A stretch of 32,157 bases of DNA. It comes from Sulfurovum sp. Its GTDB lineage: Bacteria > Campylobacterota > Campylobacteria > Campylobacterales > Sulfurovaceae. The stretch covers positions 1 through 32,157 of the forward strand of contig JALWHT010000191.1 in the NCBI GenBank assembly GCA_026983515.1. The letters are read 5' to 3'. Below the pieces are notes generated by a model. The model was not told the DNA's origin. It was given only the letters and a program-made list of their open reading frames with translations, and searched no databases. Made by a program: the position numbers and the translations under genes. Positions 24,315 through 27,397 of the stretch are shown one piece after another; position 1 is the first letter of the stretch, and every line of letters begins with the position of its first letter.

Positions 24315-24992
24315 TCACTTGTTAAGCACTTTCGAACGAGACAGTGCTGCTTCGATCTCTTCAACGCTTACTTCCCCCTCAAGCTTGAGTTCGACATTGC
24401 CGTCATTGCCTTCAACCTGCATATCTTTCACTTTCGCTTTGGTTTCATCACTCATGCATTCACACTGTCCTGTAGCACAGTTTTGTACCATTTGCATAAT
24501 ATTCTGCTTTTGCACACCTCCGGTAAAATTGATCTTCACCCCGTTGTTTGTTTTACTGACATTTTTTTGCATATTGATTCCTGTATTGCATAATTCCTGC
24601 TTGACGGTAGGCAGCAGCTCTTTTTCTATAAGTTCATAAGTCTTTTCGTACTCTGCTTCGACTTTCCCGCTGGGGTCTTCGAAACCGACGTGGATGGTCT
24701 TGACCGCTTTGGGAAACACGGGACAGGTCTCCCTGGCATTGTCGCAAACCGTGATGACCAGATCAAAAGGCGTATCAAGTACCGTATCGATGGTTTTTGA
24801 GTGGTACTCCGGCCGCCAAACACCTTTACGCTCCAGCAGTGCCTGTGCACTCGGGTTAACTTTTCCACTGGCTTTAACTCCGGAACTCTGTGCTTCTACG
24901 CAGTCGCCCAGCTTTGCATTTATAAGCGCTTCTGCCATAATGGAACGGCAGCTGTTCCCGGTGCAGAGTACCAATGCCTTTTTTTTATTCAT
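24315..24992 (-). CDS. arsC: Thioredoxin-type arsenate reductase ArsC with a C-terminal Cys-rich extension
   Basis: ArsC reduces arsenate to arsenite using the low-molecular-weight phosphatase fold. The start at 24992 (rather than 25001) overlaps the arsR stop as ATGA with AGGAGA about ten bases upstream, and it places the catalytic CTGNSCR so that Cys10 and Arg16 fall where they do in S. aureus ArsC. The resolving pair is Cys83 and Cys90 in CDNARETC. A typical ArsC ends near residue 130. This one continues to about 225 with an extra domain: VKINFTGGVQ, a CxxxxCxC cluster (Cys172, 177, 179) and an acidic end with VEEIEAALSRS. What the extension does is unknown; a metal or thiol function is a guess. 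Confidence 0.88.
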   Translation of the reverse strand: MNKKKALVLCTGNSCRSIMAEALINAKLGDCVEAQSSGVKASGKVNPSAQALLERKGVWRPEYHSKTIDTVLDTPFDLVITVCDNARETCPVFPKAVKTIHVGFEDPSGKVEAEYEKTYELIEKELLPTVKQELCNTGINMQKNVSKTNNGVKINFTGGVQKQNIMQMVQNCATGQCECMSDETKAKVKDMQVEGNDGNVELKLEGEVSVEEIEAALSRSKVLNK

Positions 24993-25312
24993 ATCGTACA
25001 TTCTCCTGTTTGTGACAGTTTTTTCAATTCCGGCAGTTCTATGTCAAGATGGCGTATCTCTTCAAGCGCTTCAGCCCTGAATCTGTCCAAAGGAGTGCGA
25101 ATGCTGTAGTATGCCCATGTTCCTTTTCGATCGACACGAAGGAATCCTGCCTCTTTGAGTATCTTCAGGTGCCGTGAGAGGCGCGACTGGATCATCTTCA
25201 GCGATGCCTGCAACTCACAGACACAGAGCGCCCCATGTTCATCGAAAAAACGCAACATCAACACCCGTGTTTCGTCATTGAGTGAGGCAACGGTTTTTAG
25301 AAAATCGTCCAT
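24989..25312 (-). CDS. arsR: ArsR/SmtB-family metalloregulator
   Basis: A 107-residue winged-helix repressor. Helix 3 carries ALCVCELQ with Cys30 and Cys32, the As(III)-binding CVC motif of arsenic-type ArsR. The recognition region IQSRLSRHLKILKEAGFL (41-58) and the wing VDRKGTWAYYSI (59-70) follow. It should be released from DNA by arsenite or antimonite. It is the first gene of arsR-arsC, overlapping arsC by four bases. An inverted repeat 47 bases upstream of its start fits its operator. Confidence 0.92.
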   Translation of the reverse strand: MDDFLKTVASLNDETRVLMLRFFDEHGALCVCELQASLKMIQSRLSRHLKILKEAGFLRVDRKGTWAYYSIRTPLDRFRAEALEEIRHLDIELPELKKLSQTGECTI

Positions 25313-25358: not shown

Positions 25359-25374
25359 ATCAATATATCTTGAT
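25359..25374. promoter_or_regulatory. Probable ArsR operator
   Basis: A perfect inverted repeat ATCAA, six bases (TATATC), TTGAT. It lies between the divergent arsR gene and the arsB remnant, within a longer AT-rich segment (25348-25381). The placement in a divergent ars promoter region fits an ArsR operator. Confidence 0.5.
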
Positions 25375-25406
25375 TTATATTCTGCTATACTCCACAAAAA
25401 ACAAGG

Positions 25407-25641
25407 CTATCCATATTTCCTGCAACGAGCCTCTTTTTGGTTACTCTCCTTTTCATCATCTGGCAGCCAAAAGGTTTACTGATAGGAACAACTGCTGTTA
25501 TCGGTGCCGTTACTGCACTGCTTTGGCTGCATGTGCTGGCACAAAAAGGTATGAAGAGTAGTAGGATGGGAGGAATACATGAAGATAGGTATGGTCGTCA
25601 CACCGCCGATACTGTTCATCGCCCTGCTTGGACTGCTGTAA
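25407..25641 (+). pseudogene. arsB: Remnant of an ArsB-type arsenite efflux pump
   Basis: An ArsB of about 430 residues has been reduced to its two ends. Reading frame 25407-25500 gives SLFLVTLLFIIWQPKGL and then IGTTAVIGAV, matching the ArsB N-terminus (VIWQPKGLGIG...). It then joins ALLWLHVLAQKGMK, which matches the C-terminal segment of ArsB (SLATLLWLHVLSQKNM). So the middle, roughly 350 residues, is deleted. A further +1 shift near 25565 is needed to read WEEYMKIGMVVTPPILFIA, ending with LLGLL and the TAA at 25639-25641, again the ArsB end. No usable ATG heads the frame; the codon where one is expected reads AGG. Confidence 0.8.
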
Positions 25642-25647
25642 CCTATT

Positions 25648-26139
25648 CTACTTTCGCAGCAGCCTCTGGGCAACAATGCCCTGTACCCAGGCACCCACCA
25701 CGACCCAAAAGGTATAAAACAGCGTAAAGCTCCATCCAAAATAGGTGACCATCAGCGGTATCCACGGAATTTTAATGGCACGCGCATAAATGAATGCGAC
25801 GATGAGTCCGTCTTTGGCACCCTGCTCACGCAGGTTTTGCAGCAGCGGATACCAGACATATCCCGGACCGTGGCTGAGAATGCCGCCAAAAAGTGCCAAG
25901 AACCACCCTTTTATGCCACTCTCCTCTCCTATATAGCTGCTAATCGCCTTTTCATCAATGTAGGCATTCAGCAGTGCCATCAGAAAGAATACCAGTAACA
26001 AAATCGGAATGATCATCTTCAATACCCCAAGACTTGCCCAGAGCGCTGACACCGTTTTGTCTGGGTGCAGGATACCAAGTACCAGATAGAGAAGTGCTAC
26101 AACGCCAAGCATCACCAGCCCGCTGTGGTTCTTTTTCAT
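25648..26139 (-). CDS. Half-size permease, C-terminal partner (DUF318/ArsP-like)
   Basis: A 163-residue membrane protein with about four or five helices. It carries FGGILSHGPGYVWYPLLQNL and then YARAIKIPWIPLMVTYFGW, as in PF03773-type predicted permeases. Its central stretch can be aligned to the partner gene (FGGI...G.P...L..L.E.GA), so the two are likely the duplicated halves of one transporter. It starts four bases inside the partner's end (ATGA). Its stop is 7 bases from the convergent arsB remnant. A substrate such as arsenite or a metal is inferred from context. Confidence 0.8.
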   Translation of the reverse strand: MKKNHSGLVMLGVVALLYLVLGILHPDKTVSALWASLGVLKMIIPILLLVFFLMALLNAYIDEKAISSYIGEESGIKGWFLALFGGILSHGPGYVWYPLLQNLREQGAKDGLIVAFIYARAIKIPWIPLMVTYFGWSFTLFYTFWVVVGAWVQGIVAQRLLRK

Positions 26140-26561
26140 GCAAATATCCTAACACAATAGGTAATAAAGAAAGCCAGTACAAAAGAAAATAGCAGGCTCA
26201 GCAAGTTACGTACCAAAGCAAAGCGGAATCCGAAAATAGAAAACTCCATAGGCAGCTGCACCACGCCGAGGGTAACAAAGGCAAGAATAAATGCCGTCAC
26301 TCCGTAAAATGAAGCTCCCTCCTTGAGCAGCTCACCGCCGATGATGTAGCTTAAAAAGGGCTGCCCGACAGAAATTCCGCCAAATCCTACCCCCACCAGC
26401 ATGTCATGCAGTGCAGTGCCATTAAAAAGAGTTCGGAGCATTTCGGGAGTAATGTAGATTTTAAAGAGTCCGATAAGTCCGATGATCGCCAGCAGCATCG
26501 GGGCGATCATTCTCAGACTTTTAAGCGTTCCGGTTGCCGCCGCTTTCAGTTTTTGCTTCAC
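26136..26561 (-). CDS. Half-size permease, N-terminal partner (DUF318/ArsP-like)
   Basis: A 141-residue protein with four hydrophobic segments. The motif VGFGGISVGQPFLSYIIGGE and then LLKEGASFYGVTAFILAF corresponds to the repeat found in the partner. The end, SIFGFRFALVRNLLSLLFSF, fits the family. It overlaps the partner by four bases. A weak GAGT-type site precedes the ATG, 56 bases downstream of the cytochrome gene, so an operon with it is possible. Confidence 0.78.
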   Translation of the reverse strand: MKQKLKAAATGTLKSLRMIAPMLLAIIGLIGLFKIYITPEMLRTLFNGTALHDMLVGVGFGGISVGQPFLSYIIGGELLKEGASFYGVTAFILAFVTLGVVQLPMEFSIFGFRFALVRNLLSLLFSFVLAFFITYCVRIFA

Positions 26562-26617: not shown

Positions 26618-27397
26618 CTATTCCCAGAATGGCAGCAGGTAGGCGATCTGCTCATCACTCAGCACCGCTGTCGTCTGCGAAATACACTTCAAATGCACCT
26701 TTGTCGCTTCAATTTTAAGCTTGGCGATCTTTTCAAGCAACGGCGCGACACTGCTTGGATCCTCTCTGTCGATCATCGCTTCGGCAACCTCATCCTCAAG
26801 CGGTTTGAGCTGCATCTTGATCTTCTTGACTGCACTTAGCGTCTCCTTACGGATGACAAGCAGTTTTTTCTTCTGTTCTGGCGTGAGTCCCAACGCACCC
26901 TTGTCCCAGTGCTTGACAAGCAGTTTGGTCAGATGCGGCAGACGGTCACTGTTGATAAGAAACGGAGAGTCGGTCAGGGCTCGGATCTTATCGTTAGCCT
27001 GTACTTCTTTGATCATTGCCGCAAAATCTTTATGGGGGTACGTCTTTACAAGATAGTCTGCAATCGTCTCCAGCTCAGCTTTCGTGACATTCCCTTTCTG
27101 AGAAGGCATCACACCAAATTTGGCTACCTTGTTGGACTCACACACCGACTTGGAAACATCGGGATTGAGTACATAGTCGACAATGAAAGCTTTTTGCGCT
27201 TCAGGCTTCTCCTTTGCCAGTTTCACATGAAACACCACCGCATCCATTGCAGGCGCTTTGAGCTTCTGAAGCTGAAAAAAGTTGGGGCTTTCTAGCATAT
27301 GGCAAGTGGCACACTTGGCTTTGGCAAGGGCTGCGGCATCGTTGGCAAGCAGCGTGCTGCCAAGCATAGAGAGGAGTACAATTGTTTGTTTCATCAT
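26618..27397 (-). CDS. Mono-haem c-type cytochrome with CpxP/Spy-like C-terminal domain
   Basis: A 259-residue exported protein (signal peptide about 1-18). The N-terminal class I cytochrome has CATCH (29-33) and a likely axial Met97 in GVMPSQKG. From about 165 comes a second region, with LGLTPEQKKKLL (170-181) and, near the end, VLSDEQIAYLLPFW. These paired LTxxQ-like motifs resemble the periplasmic CpxP/Spy/ZraP chaperone and metal-sensing family. Fusion of the two types is unusual. It lies upstream of the two permease genes. The AT-rich region before its start holds the promoter. Confidence 0.8.
   Translation of the reverse strand: MMKQTIVLLSMLGSTLLANDAAALAKAKCATCHMLESPNFFQLQKLKAPAMDAVVFHVKLAKEKPEAQKAFIVDYVLNPDVSKSVCESNKVAKFGVMPSQKGNVTKAELETIADYLVKTYPHKDFAAMIKEVQANDKIRALTDSPFLINSDRLPHLTKLLVKHWDKGALGLTPEQKKKLLVIRKETLSAVKKIKMQLKPLEDEVAEAMIDREDPSSVAPLLEKIAKLKIEATKVHLKCISQTTAVLSDEQIAYLLPFWE

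Follow-up and report, generated by a model that had tools for sequence, protein, structure and literature searches.

A Two-Gene Form of the ArsP_1 Permease, Probably Antiparallel, beside a Decayed arsB in a Sulfurovum-like Bacterium

In a vent bacterium resembling Sulfurovum, two short genes that overlap, which we call P2 and P1, probably encode a single secondary permease, assembled from a pair of homologous ArsP_1 superfamily (PF03773, UPF0718) subunits of half size each, rather than a substitute for the exporter ArsB, the remains of whose gene lie next to them. The window, namely the whole stretch of 32,157 nucleotides that was analysed, contains the pair and its neighbours in the following arrangement.

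26618..27397, minus strand: protein of 259 aa that combines a cytochrome c-like part with an LTXXQ (CpxP-like) part and lies upstream of P2 at a distance of 56 bp
26136..26561, minus strand: P2, half-permease of 141 aa with a GTG start (PF03773, E 4.8e-4; family profile of 40; charge bias)
26136..26139, minus strand: ATGA overlap of 4 nt between the stop of P2 and the start of P1, with identical spacing in the closest relatives
25648..26139, minus strand: P1, half-permease of 163 aa with an ATG start (PF03773, 40.5 bits; AlphaFold model; charge bias)
25374..25641, plus strand: dead arsB, in which residues ~5-56 of ArsB are joined to residues ~395 to the end, as seen by comparison with intact relatives
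24989..25312, minus strand: arsR, regulator of the ArsR/SmtB family, 107 aa (dN/dS ~0.07)
24315..25001, minus strand: arsC, thioredoxin-type arsenate reductase with a Cys-containing C-terminal part of ~86 aa, 228 aa in total

As had been reported in the preliminary description of this DNA, the pair adjoins arsR-arsC and ends 7 bases from the dead arsB, the TAA of which occupies positions 25639-25641 while the stop of P1 lies at 25648. Set against its intact relatives, the arsB remnant is short of ~1.04 kb and has suffered a frameshift through four nucleotides inserted near 25556-25561. No other ArsB-like sequence occurs in the genome of the window, an assembly 92.5% complete in which neither an intact ArsB nor an Acr3 was found, and arsR-arsC are under purifying selection according to their dN/dS. 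The additional tail of arsC contains the motif NCATGQCECM; it corresponds to a separate ORF of 86 aa in locus L035 and also matches as a separate piece in L036 and L056.

Homology of the Two Subunits

That the two overlapping genes align to each other, as separately encoded halves of one permease type, had been claimed from their recurring motifs, and it holds: they are homologous, tightly coupled and each equivalent to half of an ArsP_1 protein. BLASTP aligns P1 and P2 with 28% identity over 116 aa (E 8e-7). The pairwise comparison of family profiles that had been proposed as a check, carried out with 40 relatives for each protein, returned a probability of 96% with E values of 1.8e-9 to 3e-9 over 130-131 columns, whereas the same profiles gave probabilities of 0.0-2.4% against 11 unrelated families, mostly membrane proteins, taken from the same loci as a control for hydrophobicity. 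Moreover, one of 2000 shuffles of P2 that preserved the residue class at each position, and none of 2000 free shuffles, attained the observed local alignment score of 86. Given the BLASTP result, the profile match, the low values of the control families and the outcome of the shuffles, we take the likeness of P1 and P2 to be real and their homology, on sequence grounds, to exceed what hydrophobicity produces. The overlap of 4 nt between the genes is likely to reflect translational coupling.

Membership of the ArsP_1 Superfamily

Both proteins match the Pfam profile PF03773 (ArsP_1) over positions 14-134 of 294, which correspond to its first half. P1 scores above the curated cut-off of 32.3 bits, whereas P2 alone remains below it at 19.8 bits; the link of P2 with ArsP_1 comes from its homology to P1 and from a profile match to full-length proteins (probability 91%). 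Against NCBIfam, P1 attains 17.2 bits with NF033936, for which the equivalog cut-off is 300, and P2 has no match; another, full-length ArsP_1 protein of the same genome, of the SO_0444 Cu/Zn type, passes the NCBIfam cut-off at 399.7 bits. Shewanella SO_0444 itself has been linked to copper and zinc through mutant fitness (PMC3219624).

Nearly all the full-length ArsP_1 proteins that we extracted carry a Cys-Ser/Thr-Cys motif in their first half. The family alignments of P1 and P2 lack the Cys-X-Cys that the full-length exporters have, and do not contain any conserved cysteine. Conservation is concentrated instead in Ser, His, Tyr, Arg and Lys residues in P1, the family of which has the conserved segments SHGPxYxWYP and YARxIKxP, and in Asp, Gln and Glu residues in P2. 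Typical ArsP_1 members have their two halves fused, but P1 and P2 are encoded by separate genes in every locus that has both.

Distribution and Selection

Approximately 50 strong P1 loci are present among 299 genomes of the same order. When one genome per species was scanned, 167 relatives were recovered; the 80 that were retained include Campylobacterota, Desulfobacterota and Gammaproteobacteria. In 126 of 130 loci (a set which includes some duplicate contigs and is reduced to 109 without near-copies), P1 is immediately preceded by P2, with a spacing that ranges from -16 to +32 nt. Three of the four exceptions fall at contig ends; the fourth is L144, where P1 has no recognisable P2 despite 1.5 kb of upstream sequence. 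One Nautiliales MAG (L051) has the P2-P1 pair twice in tandem, with one gene between the copies. A Thermococcus plasmid has a pair annotated as two permeases overlapping by 4 nt; a collection of plasmids provided three distant matches, and a phage collection none.

Compared with four loci of Sulfurovum type, P1 has a dN/dS of 0.07-0.10 and P2 one of 0.03-0.07, values similar to that of arsR. Such low values argue that the pair is in use. P2-P1 is an old and widespread module, and it is under purifying selection.

Predicted Topology

Single-chain AlphaFold models were obtained with a pLDDT of 86.1 for P1 and 86.9 for P2. In these models P1 has an additional N-terminal helix (residues 6-24) ahead of the core that the two proteins share, which P2 lacks. 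P1 has a helix break at residues 89-95 and P2 one at 64-67. The distribution of positive residues along the core differs systematically between them: ahead of core helix 1 there are 1.4 K+R in P1 versus 4.3 in P2, behind it 4.1 versus 0.9, and between helices 3 and 4 2.7 versus 0.5, while between helices 5 and 6 the direction of the bias is reversed again. The sign of the difference is constant in 39 of 39 loci for two of the loops and in 35 and 33 of 39 for the others, these loci being related to one another and hence not equivalent to 39 independent events. Since homologous loops carry opposite K+R bias, the positive-inside rule (PMC3962082) implies that the cores of P1 and P2 would insert in opposite directions. 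P2 is predicted to have its N-terminus inside and its core repeat running from in to out, and P1 to have its N-terminus inside as well, with a core repeat inverted relative to that of P2. The charge bias, taken together with the coupling of the genes, thereby predicts an antiparallel two-subunit permease. P1 and P2 would pair head-to-tail as a heterodimer forming one transporter, which may work by alternating access in the way proposed for DUF606 pairs (PMC3962082).

The same pattern extends to the full-length ArsP_1 proteins, in which N-halves resemble P1 and C-halves resemble P2 in charge. This resemblance suggests that an inverted repeat may run across the whole ArsP_1 superfamily, unlike its published description as a family of 4+4 TMS, in which 4-TMS members are mentioned (PMC7176098); the published parallel 4+4 topology of ArsP would then be open to question. 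No solved structure was found to be related to P1 or P2 by sequence, and Foldseek searches of the PDB with the two models gave no match at E <= 0.001. In a VIA structure comparison the sorbitol PTS transporter 9x2m came out on top for each half, with Z 6.3 and rmsd 3.8 over 99 residues in one case and Z 7.5 and rmsd 4.2 over 136 in the other, values which lie within the noise of helical proteins and make this a lead only.

Genomic Context and the Link with Iron

What, then, does the pair transport? In five loci feoA starts inside the stop of P1, overlapping it by 4 nt, and feoB comes next: one of them, L095, is from Sulfurimonas, and the other four, L034, L037, L088 and L129, are from Sulfurovum and a symbiont MAG related to it. 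The order in L129 is P1-feoA-feoB, with arsB-arsR-arsC further along; the line of the window may have lost a feoAB that once separated the pair from arsB, a loss which would have made the ars genes neighbours of the pair. The genome of the window has kept one FeoB, away from the pair.

Among the 109 non-redundant loci, a PF02579 protein lies near the pair in 11, a MinD-type ATPase with ferredoxin domains in 9, an MBL-fold protein in 12 and ArsP_2 in 4; further recurrent neighbours include TauE and chromate transporters. Relatives of the 259-aa protein upstream of P2 were seen near the pair in 10 of the 109 loci, and are close in L084 and L086. Because the neighbours vary from one lineage to another, gene context fixes no substrate; as a whole it points to the handling of inorganic ions, with iron as the best single lead. 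The absence of Cys-X-Cys, the nature of the conserved residues in the two subunits and the presence of feoAB and Fe-S genes among the neighbours make a hard or borderline cation such as Fe(II), or a small anion, a more likely substrate of P2-P1 than trivalent arsenic.

The strongest competing interpretation is that P2-P1 works with FeoAB as its partner in metal transport, serving iron uptake, release or balance, and that elsewhere it accompanies genes for Fe-S storage and trafficking. The overlap of feoA with P1 in the five loci above speaks for it, as do the recurrent PF02579 proteins and ferredoxin-domain ATPases; IssA, an iron-sulfur storage protein, is considered alongside NifB-type proteins in a published study (PMC5524996). 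However, of 48 genomes only 6, belonging to two lineages, have FeoB at a distance of 10 kb or less from the pair, and the MBL-fold, TauE, chromate-transporter and other neighbours are recurrent too, so we regard this partnership as possible but doubtful, and the connection of P2-P1 with iron as a lead. Somewhat more speculative still is the broader proposition of an ancient two-gene antiparallel lineage of ArsP_1 which lacks the Cys site and, in bacteria and archaea of sulfidic habitats, transports iron or an ion linked to it in concert with FeoAB and the genes of Fe-S storage; the ArsP fold would on this view be an inverted repeat and not the parallel 4+4 of the literature.

Did the Pair Replace ArsB?

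The preliminary description had also suggested that the pair stands in for ArsB, and this part of it is not supported by the comparison with related genomes. In L084-L087 and L035 the layout is P2-P1 / arsB / arsR-arsC with an intact arsB, the P1 of these loci being 91, 91, 86 and 87% (L084-L087) and 74% (L035) identical to that of the window. An intact arsB beside the pair in five relatives means that the pair was present before arsB decayed. Furthermore, a full-length ArsB is encoded in 36 of the 48 pair-bearing Campylobacterales genomes that we sampled (two of the 36 with one internal stop codon), and an ArsB match of any kind in 39. Proximity is rare: in 4 of the 48 genomes, all of the genus of the window, ArsB is found no further than 10 kb from the pair, and the surroundings of the majority of pair loci contain no ars genes, linkage with ars being almost confined to Sulfurovum. 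Considering that intact arsB adjoins the pair in relatives and that ArsB is common in the genomes which have it, the pair did not, as far as synteny and sequence tell, arrive or spread as a replacement of ArsB; rather, arsB decayed beside an existing pair under constraint. Substitution for ArsB was thus rejected as the origin of the arrangement.

A narrower proposal would make the pair the present exporter of arsenite or antimonite for arsR-arsC, taking over from the dead arsB. The pair does adjoin arsR-arsC, which are still under purifying selection in a genome without intact ArsB or Acr3, and PF03773 includes exporters of metals and organoarsenicals. Yet the five relatives that have an intact arsB in this position, the many pair-bearing genomes with full-length ArsB, the near restriction of ars neighbours to Sulfurovum and the lack of conserved cysteines in both families all weigh against it, and an exporter may simply be missing from an assembly that is incomplete; we consider such a role improbable. 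The case is a warning that a permease next to arsRC is not automatically an arsenite pump, since this pair predates the decay of arsB and is usually not close to ars genes.

Decayed arsB genes were also encountered at G080:C1:870419-871001, with an internal loss and stops, and at G025:C1:542558-542722, as a C-terminal remnant, in both cases with a full-length ArsP_1 gene close by. These remnants suggest that the decay of arsB is repeated in Campylobacterales.

Origin of the Pair

In a maximum-likelihood tree, P1, P2 and the Thermococcus pair are split from all the halves of full-length ArsP_1 proteins with support of 100/97, a separation that comes with long-branch warnings. On account of this split, P2-P1 looks like an old separate lineage and not like a broken ArsP gene. 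Profile comparison with the two ArsP halves is consistent with an N-half for P1 and ambiguous for P2, and the gene order P2-P1 is opposite to the N-half/C-half correspondence deduced from the charge pattern. A recent mutation splitting a full-length ArsP gene into pseudogene-like halves, which might be imagined from two half-proteins adjoining where superfamily relatives have one long protein, is extremely improbable and was rejected in view of the conserved pairing of the same two genes in more than 100 loci of several phyla, the low dN/dS of both, the inverted gene order and their separate placement in the tree.

Comparison with Known Systems

P2-P1 is a permease of a known superfamily in a two-gene form, probably antiparallel, that is previously undescribed within the literature searched, in which we found no two-gene ArsP permease. 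If the antiparallel reading is true, the ArsP superfamily gains a living stage of two separate halves beside its fused proteins, as in DUF606 and SMR, and the origin of an inverted-repeat transporter becomes open to direct testing.

The closest relatives by sequence are the full-length ArsP_1/UPF0718 proteins (PF03773, TC 2.A.119), such as ArsP of C. jejuni, Shewanella SO_0444 and SaoE. They have in common with P1 and P2 the homologous repeat unit, and their N- and C-halves carry the same opposite charge bias; P2-P1 differs in being encoded by two genes instead of one, in lacking Cys-Ser-Cys, in occupying its own branch of the tree and in falling below the NCBIfam cut-offs. ArsB (PF02040) is a membrane exporter and a neighbour of the pair in the window, but it has no detectable sequence similarity to P1 or P2 (hhalign probability 0.3 and 0.4%) and coexists with them in relatives. 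The nearest parallel in organisation is provided by the DUF606 pairs and the SMR pairs such as YdgE/YdgF, which are predicted to form antiparallel heterodimers (PMC3962082) and in which, just as in P2-P1, two half-size genes homologous to each other sit side by side and have products of opposite K+R bias. P2-P1 is distinguished from them by belonging to another superfamily, by its larger repeat and by the extra N-terminal helix of P1.
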